Shown here: positions 1,339 to 23,294 of the stretch, one piece after another
Position numbering within the stretch: the stretch's first letter is position 1
How the letters are laid out: each line of letters opens with the position of its first letter
Assembly (NCBI GenBank): GCA_013205085.1
Contig: JABMLH010000001.1
Coordinates: forward strand, 434,001 to 498,000
Reading direction: 5' to 3'
DNA: 64,000 nt
From: Microbacteriaceae bacterium VKM Ac-2854
Lineage (GTDB): Bacteria > Actinomycetota > Actinomycetes > Actinomycetales > Microbacteriaceae
Translations under genes and position numbers: made by a program
Notes under the pieces: model-generated
The model's input: the letters and a program-made list of their open reading frames with translations, nothing else
Told to the model about the DNA's origin: nothing
The model's database searches: none

Positions 1339-1368
1339 TTGACAGCCGGTTATCGATAAATCTATTGT
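1339..1368 (+). promoter_or_regulatory. promoter with LacI-type operator in the spacer
   Basis: TTGACA (1339-1344) is followed after 18 bp by TATTGT (1363-1368), a good sigma-70-type promoter. The perfect 10-bp palindrome TTATCGATAA occupies 1350-1359, between the two hexamers, where a bound repressor would block polymerase. The same palindrome occurs at 8801-8810 and 15566-15575. It drives the GH98 gene, whose TTG start lies about 100 bp downstream. Confidence 0.75.
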
Positions 1369-1470
1369 TCAGGCACGAAGGATCCGGCAATTCATCGGTC
1401 AAATCAGCGAAGCCGGTCCGCCGCCGATCCCGGCTCGTTCGTCACCGTCGACAGAAATGAGGGCACAACG

Positions 1471-4400
1471 TTGTTCCCCCGCAGCTCCACGACCCACTCC
1501 GCTTCGAGACCGATCCTCCGACTTCGCCGCCTTCTGGCCATCGCCGTGGCCTGTGCGCTCGCGCTGGTGCTCGTGCCTGCGGTCGAGGCCGAGGCGAGCC
1601 CCGCTGCCGCGGCGCAGGTCGACGCACCGATGCGGATGAACGTCGGCAGCGACAACCCGCTGCTGATCACGCAGCTGAACATCGGCAACGATCTCGGCAA
1701 GACCGAGGGGTTCAAGCGCAACTACAACAGCGGCTGGTCCTTCGCTCAGCTCTGGGCCTCCGTCCCGGACGAGTTGAAGCAGAACATCGGCTACGTCCTG
1801 CACCAGGGCCACACCGCACTCGCCGACAACAAGCCGGAGGAGAACGCTCGTTGGCTGGAGGACAACATCGCCGAGGCCGACGCGCTCGGCATCCCGGTCT
1901 TCATGCTGTGGGATGAGGGCCGCACGCTGCAGTCGAACGCGACCCGCTTCGCGTTCCTGGAGCAGATGTACCAGAAGTACCCGCACTTCATGGGCACCGT
2001 CGTCTCCGAGCAGGCGGACACGCTCGGCGACCTTCCCGAGGCGCTGCGGATCGCGAACCTGTACGGCGGCTTCCACATCCTCGGATCCCTCGAGGAGACG
2101 AACGGGCTCGCGAACCGGATGGAGACGCAAAGTTACTGGGATTCGGTCGCGCGCTACAAGCAGAACTTCATCTACAACCCGAAGAACTTCCACGAGAACT
2201 TCGAGGCCTCCAACGCCTGGGCGCAGGGCGCCTGGCTCGCCGGCGCGTTCGACAACTGGGGCCCGTACTTCGACGGCTACCCCTATTACGGCTGCGGCTT
2301 CTTCGGTCGCGACCAGAGCGCGTATCAGAACTGCGGTGATCGCTGGTCGCGCAGCATGGCCGAGACCGTCGCCTCGATGATGCTGCTGGATCAGTGGCAG
2401 AACGGCGCCACGGTCTTCCACATGGAGAACCAGCTGGACATCCCGACCACGGGCAGCCTGTATTCGCCGTACTTCTATCAGTCGATCCTGCCGGCGATGC
2501 GCTACATCCTGTCGCACCAGACGCCGACGAAGGCCGACGTCATCGCGCGCACGAAGGTCGCGTTCTCGGAGAAGAACGGCAACATCTGCTCGCTGAAAGA
2601 CTCGACGACCGGCCGCGCGAACAACCCGTGCCGCCCGACGTTCTACTCGATGTACGAGAAGTCGCCGCAGCTCACTGCGGTGCAGAAGCAGCTCTGGTAC
2701 TACCCGAGGGAGACGGGTCGCTACAACATCATCCCGCGCATCCCCAAGCTCGCCCCCGCCTCCTTGCTGACCCAGTTCGACACGGTCCTGACGGCGGACA
2801 CCTACAACGCGTCGATGCTCTACGGCGACGCCCGGCAGGCACTGTTCGACAGCAAGTACCCCGCGATCTCCGAGGGTGACGCGTACGTGCAGAGGTCAGG
2901 GAGTTCCTGGCTCGTCTACAACAGCAACGACCGCGACAACTTCAGTCAGGACGCGACGCTCCTGCTCGGCGGCCAACAGTTCTCCCGCCTGGAGATGCCA
3001 CAGATCACGCCGCACACCTGGGCCATGGTCGACCAGCGAAGCGCCTCCACGGTCGCCGTGACGCTCGACACGTACCGGACCGACCGCGAAGCGGATCTGC
3101 TCTCCGTCGGCGGGGTGCGCGACATGGAGTTCAACCGCAACTTCGTGAAGTACGCCTACGTCCCCGACCCGGCCGACTCCGCCCTGCGCACGACGACGAT
3201 GCGTTTCGACGTGCCGACCAAGCCGACGCTCGCCATCTCGGGCTACGACGACAACCACTACAGCTATACGGAGACCTGGGACCCGAACACCCACCAGTAC
3301 ACGCTCGTCGTGCAGTCCAACGGCGTGGTCGACATCGTGCTCAGCACCGCCGACGCCGAGGCCGGCTGGACGACGATCCCCGCCGGTTCCGCCCTCGTCT
3401 CCACGACCGCCGAAGCGACGACCGTCCCCTTCGACGGCACTTCCATCGCCTGGCAGGTCCCGGTCGGCTCGAGCGGCACCGCGAGCGTCTCGATCGATGG
3501 CGTCGCCCAGGGCAGTGTCAACGTCTCCGGCGGGACCGTCTTCCGCGCGACCGGTCTTGCCAACAGCGCCCACGTGCTGCGTATCACCGGCTCGCGGCCC
3601 ACTGGTGGCTCGTTCGCGTACGTCCCCTCGCAGGAGCAGTCGATGACCTTGCTCGAGTCGAACGACTTCAACTACGGATCCGCGAGCGAGGACGAATCGA
3701 CCCTCTACGGGGCCGAGGGCTGGCGCGTCATCGACGGGAAACTGAAGCTCGTCGGCTTCGTCTTCCCCTTCTACGGCGACACCACCGTCTACAACACCAA
3801 CACGAAGCTGAAAGACGTGCGCTACGAGGCGAAGGTCACCCTGGTGCAGGGGACGTCCGGCTCGATCATGATCCGCGGCAACGAGGACAGCAAGAGCGGA
3901 CTGTTCTTCCGGCTCGACCCGAACCGCACCGCGGAAGGCCGCAACGGCACCGCGACGTACTCCTGCTCGCTGCACTCCGGCGCCGCCAAGGGCCTGAACA
4001 ACTGGGCCGCCGTCGCCACCTGCCCGACCTCGCTGACTCTGAATCGCGACCAGGAGTACTCCGTCGTCGTCACCGCCGTCGGCAGCACCGTCACGGCGTC
4101 CATCGACGGCCAGGAGGTGCTCACCTACACCGACCCCACCCCGGCCGCCGGCTACACCGGTGTCCGAGCCGCGCAGACCCAATCCGATGCCGGCTACCGG
4201 CTCGGACAGTTCGTCGAACTGGACGATGTGAAGGTCACCGACCTGTCGACGAACTCGGTCGCCTATTCCTCGACGTTCGACGACTGGGACGGCGCGACGG
4301 GCTGGATGACCGAGACTCCGCTGGTCTTCGATTGGAACACCAAGGCCGACCCTCGCAGTTCGTTCACCTTCCCCTGGAAATGGCAGAGCAACGGCGGCAC

Positions 4401-21096: not shown

Positions 21097-22424
21097 CCAC
21101 CATCACCGCTGTGACGGCGCACGACGTGCGATTCCCGACCTCGCTGAGCCTGGACGGCTCGGACGCGATGAACAAGGACGGCGACTACTCGGCCGCCTAC
21201 GTCGTCATCCACACCGACGACCCGGCCCTCAGCGGCTACGGCTTCACCTTCACCATCGGCCGTGGGAACGACCTCTGCGTCGAGGCCGCCCGGCAGCGCG
21301 GGCTGCCGCTGATCGGCAGGGCCGTCGAGGAACTCATCGGTGATCTCGGCGGCACCTATCGGTGGTTGCAGAGCGATTCGCAGCTGCGCTGGCTCGGACC
21401 GGAGAAGGGCGTTGTGCACCTGGCCATGGCCGCCGTGATGAACGCCGTCTGGGACCTCGCCGCCCGCGTCGCCCGCAAGCCGCTCTGGCGCCTGCTTGCG
21501 GAGATGACGCCCGAAGAACTCGTCGACGCCGCCGACCTGCGTTATCTCTCCGACGCCCTCACCCGAACGGAGGCGTTGGAGATCCTGCGCGAGAAGGAAC
21601 CGACGCGCCTCGCCCGGATCGCCACCCTGGAGAGCGCCGGCGGCTACCCCTGTTACACAACGAGTGCCGGCTGGCTCGGCTACTCCGATGACAAGCTGCG
21701 CCGCCTCCTGCAGGAGGCCGTCGACGAGGGTTACCGCCACATCAAGCTCAAGGTCGGCTCGAACAAGCAGGACGACATCCGCCGCCTCAGCATCGCCCGC
21801 GAGGTCATCGGCTGGGACGCCAAACTGATGATCGACGCGAACCAGGTCTGGGATGTGCCGGAGGCGATCGAATGGATGCAGTCCCTGGCGGAGTTCAAAC
21901 CGCTCTGGATCGAGGAACCGACCAGCCCCGACGACATCCTCGGGCACGCTGCCGTGCGTAAGGCCGTCGCGCCGATCGGCGTCGCGACCGGCGAACACGG
22001 CATGAACCGGGTTCTGTTCAAGCAGATGTTCCAGGCCGAAGCGATCGACTTCTGTCAGCTCGACTCCGCCCGCCTCGCCAGCGTCAACGAGATCATCAGC
22101 GTCTACCTGATGGCCTGGAAGTTCGGCGTTCCCGTCTGCCCGCACGCCGGCGGCGTCGGCCTGTGCGAACTCGTCCAGCACCTCTCGATCTTCGACTACG
22201 TCTGCGTCTCCGGCACCCTCGAGAACCGCGTGACGGAGTTCGTCGACCACCTGCACGAGCACTTCGTCGAACCGTGCATCGTCGAGAACGGTGCGTACAC
22301 GATCCCCACCGCCCCCGGCTACAGCGCCGAGATGTACCAGGCGTCGATCGAGCGGTACCGCTTTCCCGACGGAAGCTACTGGATGTCCGTCGCGGCGCCC
22401 GAACTCGAGGAATCCGTCGCGTAG
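21093..22424 (+). CDS. fucD: L-fuconate dehydratase
   Basis: 443-aa enolase-superfamily enzyme that removes water from L-fuconate to give 2-keto-3-deoxy-L-fuconate. It matches the Xanthomonas enzyme along its length: [13 protein letters not shown] start, [13 protein letters not shown] region, [22 protein letters not shown]-like segment. The two acid/base residues fall at K220 (KLKVG) and H351 (CPHAGGVG), identical in number to the published catalytic pair. Metal ligands lie in DANQVWD, WIEEP and GEH. It tolerates L-galactonate in characterised homologues. Placed between dehydrogenase and lactonase with overlap or zero spacing. Confidence 0.95.
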
Positions 22425-23294
22425 ATGACCGTCATCGACTCCCACCAGCACGTCTGGGACCCGGCCCGCGCCGAATACGACTGGCTCGGACCGGATCTCG
22501 CGCCCATCGACCGAGCCATCGACCTGGACGAGGCGCTGCCGTCGATGCGTCGAGCCGGCATCGACGCGACGGTGCTGGTGGAGTCGGCGGACAACGACGA
22601 GGACACCGAGCTGATGTTCGAGACGGCTCGGAAGCACCCCGAGGTCGTCGCGATCGTCGCGTTCGCGCCGCTGGAGGATCCGCGCCGCATCGCCGAACTC
22701 GCCGAGCGGTTCGCAGCCGAACCGCTCGTCGTCGGGGTGCGAAACCTCATCCACAACAACCCCGACCCGGATTGGCTGCTCCGATCCGATGTTCGGGGCA
22801 GCCTCGATATCCTCGCGGCTCACGGTCTCACCTTCGACCTGGTGTCGGTCCTGCCCCGGCACCTCATGCTGGTGCCCGAGCTGTCGCGACGGCACCCCGG
22901 GCTGAAGATCGTGATCGACCATCTGTCCAAGCCACCGATCGGAGCTTCGGGGCGGGAGCCGTGGTGGACGCTTCTCCGGCAGGCGGCGGAGAACCCGGCC
23001 GTGTACGCGAAGGTATCGGGTCTGTATTCCAGCGTCGGAGATCCCGGCTCCTGGACCGCAGCGAGCGTGGCTCCATACATCCACCATGCTCTCGACGTGT
23101 TCGGTGCCGATCGCCTGATGTTCGGGAGCGATTGGCCGATCTCGATCACCGCCGGTGGGTACGACCTCGTTTGGGACGGATTATCGACGATCCTCGGCGA
23201 CCTCCCCGCACCCGACCGGGCCGCGATCTTCGGGGAGACCGCCCGACGCTTTTACGGCATCGACGAGTTCCGACTGCGCGCAGCGTCGGCATGA
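22425..23294 (+). CDS. amidohydrolase-family L-fucono-lactonase
   Basis: 289-aa COG3618-type metal-dependent hydrolase. N-terminal DSHQHVWDP (HxH-type metal site), IDHLSKPPIG with His, and a C-terminal FGSDWPI with the catalytic Asp. This family contains lactonases for L-fucono-, L-rhamnono- and D-galactono-lactones. The ATG follows the fuconate dehydratase stop without a gap, so translation is coupled. It hydrolyses the lactone made by the aldo/keto reductase, completing the route from L-fucose to L-fuconate. Confidence 0.9.
   Translation: MTVIDSHQHVWDPARAEYDWLGPDLAPIDRAIDLDEALPSMRRAGIDATVLVESADNDEDTELMFETARKHPEVVAIVAFAPLEDPRRIAELAERFAAEPLVVGVRNLIHNNPDPDWLLRSDVRGSLDILAAHGLTFDLVSVLPRHLMLVPELSRRHPGLKIVIDHLSKPPIGASGREPWWTLLRQAAENPAVYAKVSGLYSSVGDPGSWTAASVAPYIHHALDVFGADRLMFGSDWPISITAGGYDLVWDGLSTILGDLPAPDRAAIFGETARRFYGIDEFRLRAASA

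Follow-up and report, generated by a model that had tools for sequence, protein, structure and literature searches.

The window analyzed here is a 64,000-nt stretch of the 4.75-Mb genome of Microbacteriaceae bacterium VKM Ac-2854 (bases 434001–498000 of contig 1), and its positions 1339–23294 hold a locus in which a giant glycoside hydrolase family 98 (GH98) enzyme, a CUT1 importer and a GH95 enzyme are combined with genes for oxidative sugar catabolism. With moderate confidence, we propose that this locus enables the inducible utilization of a glycan ending in an α-1,2-linked L-galactosyl, and possibly also L-fucosyl, residue. The gene families, their order, the operator-like sites and their conservation are established, and it is from these sequence features that we infer every reaction, the sugar, the targets of the regulators and the polymer. 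An initial annotation had recognized the CUT1 importer, an intracellular GH95 and oxidative L-sugar catabolism around GH98 on an actinobacterial chassis, and all of these gene families are indeed present. Its choice of L-fucose as the sugar, with a pathway ending at 2-keto-3-deoxy-L-fuconate (KDF), is not supported: the annotation left out the operon at 15696–19037, which fits a 6-hydroxy sugar, and a canonical L-fucose cluster lies elsewhere in the genome.

L-Fucose and L-galactose differ only at C6. Pfam and NCBIfam scans of the locus genes revealed a catabolic set consisting of an aldo-keto reductase (AKR), a lactonase, the dehydratase FucD, a zinc-dependent dehydrogenase (Zn-ADH), a KduD-like short-chain dehydrogenase/reductase (SDR), the aldolase Eda and a PfkB kinase. 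The first three represent the upper set of the Xanthomonas type (sugar dehydrogenase, fuconolactonase and FucD), with the lactonase under the NCBIfam cut-off, and could serve L-fucose and L-galactose alike. According to parts of two reports, L-fucose dehydrogenases and dehydratases take the L-galactose series, more weakly (PMC12370193; PMC6336799, the latter on another dehydratase family). The Zn-ADH, the SDR, the 2-keto-3-deoxy-6-phosphogluconate (KDPG) aldolase and the kinase, which is of the 2-keto-3-deoxy-D-gluconate (KDG) type, would suit a pathway in which C5 is inverted and C6 phosphorylated; a route from 2-keto-3-deoxy-L-galactonate (L-KDGal) via 2,5-diketo-3-deoxy-L-galactonate (DDGal) and KDG to KDPG is described in a section of PMC5943477. 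Such a lower module would imply a sugar with a 6-hydroxyl group, because KDF, the 6-deoxy keto acid derived from L-fuconate, has no C6 hydroxyl to phosphorylate. Bacterial L-fucose routes, as outlined in part of PMC11199699, employ a KDF 4-dehydrogenase and a diketo hydrolase in one case and an aldolase in another. Compared with the L-fucose cluster of the same genome, positions 1339–23294 contain neither a KDF 4-dehydrogenase-type SDR (best match 32–33%) nor a FAH-family hydrolase, the nearest one (38%) lying outside at 26606, and no FucI/FucK/FucA-type gene was detected among the locus genes scanned.

The Zn-ADH/SDR pair resembles a set associated with 3,6-anhydro-L-galactose (AHG) on plasmids, which supports the L-galactose assignment. 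Relatives of the Zn-ADH occur in 14 plasmid records, and in five of the seven neighborhoods examined the next gene is an SDR. In three of these five (B. uniformis, Catenovulum and Microscilla), which are presumably agar regions, aldA and a mandelate-racemase-family gene adjoin, i.e., the AHG dehydrogenase/cycloisomerase set; in Roseibium, a mandelate-racemase-family gene adjoins the pair. The Catenovulum SDR is annotated as 2,5-didehydro-3-deoxy-L-galactonate 5-reductase, and the window SDR is 56–57% identical to the SDRs adjoining Zn-ADH on four plasmids, as against 32–33% to the SDR of its own L-fucose cluster. The locus thus contains the paired Zn-ADH and DDGal-reductase-like SDR of an agar-type L-KDGal lower branch, a pair that is not AHG-specific.

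Further support comes from the separate, canonical L-fucose cluster on contig 6 of the same genome (L024:79–14612), which comprises an AKR, a lactonase, a FucD (56% identical to that of the locus), a KDF-type SDR and a FAH-family hydrolase. The sole GH29 of the genome lies ~7 kb from these fucose genes, with a peptide-type ABC importer in between. Two sampled genomes (G162 and G120) show a like split, with GH29 and SDR/FAH in one locus and GH95, FucD, Zn-ADH and SDR in another; when the FAH of the contig 6 cluster is compared with G162, G120, G353 and G327, the best matches are 63–65% identical.

A scan of one genome per species across 84,980 species, performed with a single-protein query and reaching close relatives only, yielded a single close relative, Microbacterium sp. 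C5A9, whose GH98 catalytic part is 73–74% identical. The whole set is conserved there (GH98 63%, SBP 67%, permeases 73–75%, GH95 47%, GntR 59%, FucD 76%, AKR 53–61%, lactonase 33%, Zn-ADH 60%, SDR 68%, Eda 46%, kinase 50%; SBP, solute-binding protein), with an extra SBP gene beside GH98. The C5A9 genome gave no GH29 match, and its locus contains neither a KDF-type SDR nor a FAH. In C5A9, the AKR and lactonase genes sit between Zn-ADH and SDR in one gene run.

This arrangement, which points to one pathway, bears on an alternative in which the cap is L-fucose (H- or Lewis-like), the AKR, lactonase and FucD lead to KDF that is finished elsewhere, and the Zn-ADH, SDR, Eda and kinase serve another sugar of the glycan, e.g., D-galactose or a uronate. 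We judge this alternative unlikely. It draws on the match of FucD and the lactonase to L-fuconate and L-fuconolactone families, on the KDF-type SDR and FAH present elsewhere in the genome and on the position of Zn-ADH near kduI/kduD in Paracoccus. It is at odds with the gene run of C5A9, with the completeness of the separate L-fucose cluster, with the lack of a KDF-type SDR (best 32% in the window locus) or FAH in either locus, and with the finding that no D-galactonate dehydratase was detected among the locus genes scanned.

Across the 396 genomes of the order, FucD relatives (1e-100) occur in 124 and Zn-ADH relatives (1e-70) in 27. We inspected the neighborhoods in 19 of the 26 other Zn-ADH genomes (leaving out seven) and in C5A9, and contrasted them with 21 hand-picked FucD loci lacking a close Zn-ADH, among them the own L-fucose cluster and L053 (30% Zn-ADH-like match). 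An SDR adjoins Zn-ADH in all 19 loci of the other sampled genomes. The KDPG aldolase Eda was found in 10 of 20 Zn-ADH loci and in 0 of 21 FucD loci without Zn-ADH, a difference favoring the L-galactose assignment (Fisher p = 1.6e-4, a value that flatters since the rows are related and hand-chosen). In a FucD tree of 29 rows, one branch with 100/100 support separates 11 from 18, and Zn-ADH loci lie on either side, so that the union of the two genes arose, or was kept, in distant lineages. Because of this distribution and because the GH95s of L027 and L028 are only 36% identical to the window GH95, the association probably formed on more than one occasion, the alternative being loss from an older union.

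The fucose module stands beside Zn-ADH in 11 of the 19 loci, which suggests that many of these relatives may take both sugars. A dual function of the window locus, in which a mixed plant glycan of the xyloglucan or rhamnogalacturonan II type would supply both L-galactose and L-fucose to the upper enzymes, with KDF passed to the second cluster and L-KDGal retained, would agree with these side-by-side modules, with the weaker acceptance of the L-galactose series by fucose enzymes and with Halomonas L-fucose loci containing L-galactonate genes, as described in part of PMC5507952. We nevertheless consider it quite improbable, since the fucose module is missing from the window and C5A9 loci and C5A9 has no GH29 match. 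Ten loci carry the second module alone (window, C5A9, L027, L028, L034 and L039–L043); four of them have a GH95, and none has a GH29 as judged with one GH29 query (Pfam for the window genes).

Several observations weigh against L-galactose as the sugar. L-Galactose is rare compared with L-fucose. The family names of FucD and the lactonase refer to fucose, and fucose-type loci also occur within the closest FucD group, for which reason the upper pathway appears not to be specialized; the AKR of the own L-fucose cluster is 52% identical to that of the locus and is therefore not discriminating. With 54% identity to a KduD encoded beside kduI, the window SDR is nearly as similar to that enzyme as to its plasmid counterparts. 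On the plasmids, the gene next to Zn-ADH is not an SDR in two of the seven regions, Paracoccus (with kduI/kduD nearby) and Spirosoma, an annotated α-L-fucosidase lies near the Zn-ADH/SDR pair in Persicobacter and also in the B. uniformis region, and Zn-ADH is not tied to AHG genes. About 170 kb from its locus, the same C5A9 contig encodes a FAH that shares 56% identity with the fucose-type enzyme, and among the sampled loci GH95 occurs with the fucose module (L063) and paired GH29s with both lower modules (L025/L026). The fungal counterparts favor the fucose series, FDH1 showing 17.5% activity on L-galactose and GaaB a tenfold preference for L-fuconate (PMC12370193, in part). Finally, the polymorphic −1 site of the window GH95 is a Thr (by eye), as in the Bacteroides ovatus enzyme BACOVA_03438, but we dropped this residue as a test of specificity because fucosidases with Thr exist, making it non-diagnostic (PMC8245568, in part).

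The product of 1471–8052 scored above threshold for both GH98 domains (PF08306, 61 bits, cut-off 23; PF08307, 91 bits, cut-off 25), bearing out the initial assignment, and is the sole PF08306 match in the genome. Its 2193 residues are arranged as GH98M (51–349), GH98C (414–624), 3keto-disac_hyd (749–895), Big_4 (1168–1233) and six FN3 domains; a discoidin-like stretch (~1603–1815) was assigned by eye without a Pfam match. A strongly hydrophobic stretch begins at residue 21, and the enzyme is probably secreted. A phmmer search against the PDB placed the Sp4GH98 chains (2WMF-H) on top with 170 bits, followed by Sp3GH98 (88) and RgGH98 (82). E180 and E319, expected in the initial annotation to line one cleft, align together with D268 to Sp4GH98 residues that we take to be catalytic: E180 to a position occupied by E in 2WMF/2WMH and by A in 2WMG, D268 to the aspartate of DNWGSSTD and E319 to the glutamate of NFEC. 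AlphaFold models from a two-row alignment (window and the C5A9 stretch L013) reached a predicted local distance difference test score (pLDDT) of 40 for the catalytic part and 42 for the discoidin-like stretch. The PDB entries are assigned to the three enzymes in part of PMC8730463, which also names Fuc-α1,2-Gal of Lewis Y as the Sp4GH98 substrate; this relationship favors an L-fucose cap. Nearness to Sp4GH98 is, however, weak when taken alone, since the GH98s of L011 and L010 share it as their best solved match.

A xylan locus resembling PUL-XylL of B. ovatus, in which a GH98 endo-xylanase is paired with a GH95 α-L-galactosidase on grass glucuronoarabinoxylan (PMC4491172, in part), would explain the same two families, yet it is highly improbable here. 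The window GH98 scores 170 bits against Sp4GH98 but 82 and 72 bits against two GH115-linked Catenovulum GH98s, and no GH43, GH115, GH30 or xylosidase gene was detected among the locus genes scanned. A xylanase reading of the enzyme is thus disfavored by these bit scores, the comparison covering the Catenovulum GH98 sequences. The same nearness to the H/Lewis-Y endo-galactosidase tentatively suggests a capped β-galactoside as the polymer, and endo-β-galactosidase activity is the predicted function. L-Galactose-α1,2-galactose occurs in jojoba xyloglucan, and L-galactose in rhamnogalacturonan II. L-Galactose is also found in corn xylan, according to part of PMC4491172.

GH98 is uncommon: among the 396 genomes of the order it occurs in five, this one included. 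In two members of the family, at L011:7783–18896 and L012:3310–13817, it is paired with a GH36 α-galactosidase and a CUT1 importer; L012 also holds a GH29, and in the L011 genome a GH29 lies ~9 kb from the GH98. This arrangement resembles the pneumococcal operon in its A/B-antigen version. At L010:1669–11030, a GH98 closer to a GH115-linked Catenovulum GH98 (193 bits) than to the window GH98 (72 bits) has permeases, a GH65 enzyme and a LacI-like gene as neighbors, with exopolysaccharide glycosyltransferases adjoining. A Catenovulum adriaticum plasmid (L071:4344–21991) carries two GH98 and three GH115 genes nearly in a row, likely a glucuronoxylan cluster.

The GH95 protein contains the N-terminal, catalytic (470 bits) and C-terminal GH95 Pfam domains, and its N-terminus has no hydrophobic stretch comparable to that of GH98; it is probably cytoplasmic. 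That a GH95 α-L-galactosidase is on record (PMC4491172, in part) favors an L-galactose cap. The CUT1 importer comprises the SBP and two permeases (Pfam). Neither the SBP (1e-80) nor PF08306 has a match in the 14 other genomes of the genus, and the locus therefore looks accessory. An SBP–permease–permease–GH95 arrangement is shared by two further genera (L075 and L076), where it is accompanied by LacI, a GDSL esterase and an additional GH95; FucD (77%) and GntR occur in one of the two as well. PF08306 had no match in these two genomes (83 and 87% complete) in a search that detected two known GH98 genomes; likewise, the window GH98 protein had no match in 16 genomes, in agreement with the PF08306 profile and its two positive genomes.

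Shared operators had been noted in the locus, and genome-wide scans confirmed them. The LacI-type palindrome TTATCGATAA occurs at three places in 4.75 Mb, all within the locus (1350, 8801 and 15566), where it precedes GH98, lacI and the SBP–permease–GH95 operon; the reversed pattern occurs once, and ~0.2 places are expected from composition (hand estimate). It has no place in the C5A9 stretch. Visual inspection of upstream regions in C5A9 and the window yielded the GntR consensus ATTSATCNGATSAAT, with which both genomes were then scanned; the sites behind this consensus are no independent proof, and the genome-wide counts with a reversed control are better evidence. In the own genome, both places at ≤1 mismatch and four of seven at ≤2 mismatches fall in the locus. 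The C5A9 genome has three perfect places, all in the homologous locus, and five of 16 at ≤2 mismatches there. The reversed control gave no place in either genome. In C5A9, both the importer and GH98 have perfect sites on their 5′ side, and the stretch separating gntR from GH95 contains weaker ones. The window sites lie 5′ of the importer, of AKR and of the Zn-ADH operon; GH98 is preceded there by three weak sites, a number reached in none of 2000 shuffles of that region. Because common palindromes precede them, GH98, the importer, GH95 and the catabolic genes appear to be tied into one regulon. Judged by these operator-like sites, LacI would control GH98, its own gene and the importer/GH95 operon, and GntR the catabolic operons and the importer.

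Taken together, the secreted GH98 would cut the chain behind the capped sugar, the CUT1 system would import the small product and the cytoplasmic GH95 would release the L-galactose cap. AKR and lactonase would convert L-galactose to L-galactonate, and FucD would dehydrate this to L-KDGal, which Zn-ADH would oxidize at C5 and the KduD-like SDR reduce the other way to yield KDG. In an alternative order that the genes do not distinguish, C5 inversion would come first, via D-tagaturonate and D-altronate, with FucD acting after it. Kinase and Eda would finally produce pyruvate and glyceraldehyde-3-phosphate.

Table 1 Features of the locus with window coordinates and basis of assignment.
Feature	Position	Strand	Basis or remark
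Upstream region of GH98	1295–1404	+	Three weak GntR-type operator-like sites (1295, 1317, 1390; three mismatches each); LacI-type TTATCGATAA at 1350–1359
GH98 endo-glycosidase, probably secreted, 2193 aa	1471–8052	+	Pfam domains, PDB alignment
Small protein, no family assigned, 207 aa	8111–8734	+	Between GH98 and lacI; signal-like N-terminus by eye
LacI-type operator TTATCGATAA	8801–8810	+	Pattern scan
LacI-family regulator	8832–9872	+	Pfam
GH95 (α-1,2-L-fucosidase/α-L-galactosidase family), probably cytoplasmic	9864–12266	−	Pfam, hydrophobicity
CUT1 permease 2	12266–13189	−	Pfam
CUT1 permease 1	13186–14100	−	Pfam
CUT1 SBP	14177–15448	−	Pfam
Operator region 5′ of SBP–permease–GH95 operon	15566–15681	−	LacI-type 15566–15575; GntR-type 15604–15618 (1 mismatch), 15667–15681 (2 mismatches)
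PfkB sugar kinase, KDG-kinase-like	15696–16637	−	Below NCBIfam equivalog cut-offs; family level only
KDPG/KHG aldolase (Eda)	16634–17266	−	TIGR01182 225.5 bits, cut-off 156
KduD-like SDR, proposed DDGal 5-reductase	17263–18018	−	kduD model 312 bits, cut-off 339
Zn-ADH, proposed L-KDGal 5-dehydrogenase	18015–19037	−	Pfam, plasmid neighborhoods
GntR-type operator (1 mismatch) 5′ of Zn-ADH operon	19179–19193	−	Pattern scan
GntR/FCD regulator	19219–19968	−	Pfam
GntR-type operator (2 mismatches) at AKR promoter	20065–20079	+	Overlaps first ATG of AKR
AKR, putative L-galactose/L-fucose 1-dehydrogenase	20074–21096	+	Five best PDB matches are L-galactose dehydrogenases
FucD, putative L-fuconate/L-galactonate dehydratase, enolase superfamily	21093–22424	+	598 bits to L-fuconate dehydratase (2HXT, 1YEY)
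1,5-Lactonase, amidohydrolase superfamily	22425–23294	+	L-fucono-1,5-lactonase model 154 bits, below cut-off 400

Given the operator overlapping its first ATG, the true AKR start probably lies further downstream than annotated. The small protein has no Pfam match and no counterpart in the C5A9 neighborhood. Beyond the locus, a separate group at 25359–28323 encodes a dihydrodipicolinate synthase-like aldolase, a FAH hydrolase and a LacI-like regulator (by eye) beside an Nramp gene (23875–25194). We rejected this FAH (26423–27247) as a pathway member because its identity to the counterpart in the genome's L-fucose cluster is just 38%, against the 63–65% of the best matches in G162, G120, G353 and G327, and because no FAH gene occurs in the C5A9 locus. 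A tRNA gene lies at 28759–28845 (minus strand), ~5 kb past the locus, and a 1024-aa open reading frame at 35337–38411 (minus strand) contains Laminin_G_3 and atrophied Ig repeats.

Upper-pathway annotation cannot separate L-fucose from L-galactose, and the lower module (SDR and FAH versus Zn-ADH and KduD-like SDR with kinase and Eda) may serve as the signature of the sugar eaten. If our assignment is true, some “fucose” loci need renaming, GH95s adjoining the second module would be candidate α-L-galactosidases, an enzyme type that is scarce, and an endo-acting GH98 for L-galactose-capped chains is directly testable. We advance a broader proposal only tentatively and regard it as doubtful: that enzymes of this GH98 branch are endo-acting on galactosides capped with L-galactose, a 6-hydroxyl analogue of the H antigen, and that on two or more occasions actinobacteria assembled a pathway for L-galactose from the upper enzymes of L-fucose catabolism and the agar-type L-KDGal lower branch.

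Among the matches listed for open-licence PMC literature on GH98 and Microbacterium, L-galactose metabolism, L-galactonate/L-fuconate dehydratase and GH95/GH98, judged by titles and abstract starts, we found no description of this locus. The pneumococcal TIGR4-type fucose operon, which reportedly combines Sp4GH98 with GH95, shares the logic of GH98 outside, import and GH95, and the parallel drawn in the initial annotation is strengthened by its pneumococcal H/Lewis-Y-type GH98 being the nearest solved one. In contrast, the locus has an oxidative pathway with no FucI/FucK/FucA-type gene among those scanned, a putative C5-inverting, KDPG-forming lower module and LacI/GntR control. PUL-XylL (BACOVA_03433 GH98 and BACOVA_03438 GH95 α-L-galactosidase) likewise pairs GH98 with GH95, with L-galactose as the proposed cap; here, xylan-debranching enzymes are missing from the locus genes scanned, GH98 is nearer to an endo-galactosidase and a CUT1 importer replaces SusCD. 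The Xanthomonas-type oxidative L-fucose pathway shares FucD, the lactonase and the sugar dehydrogenase with the locus, which lacks its KDF 4-dehydrogenase and diketo hydrolase. The lower pathway of AHG (P. atlantica and the Catenovulum, Microscilla and B. uniformis plasmid relatives) offers the Zn-ADH/SDR pair, KDG kinase and KDPG end, although here this branch would be fed by AKR, lactonase and FucD rather than by AHG dehydrogenase and cycloisomerase. A route by which Luteolibacter LG18 and Bacteroides vulgatus catabolize L-galactose, described in part of PMC12632266, matches the proposed pathway in its L-galactose dehydrogenase, its two dehydrogenases for C5 inversion, its KDG kinase and its KDPG aldolase (LG18); its intermediates include D-tagaturonate and D-altronate, the latter dehydrated by an altronate dehydratase, whereas the locus described here would employ a FucD-type dehydratase.

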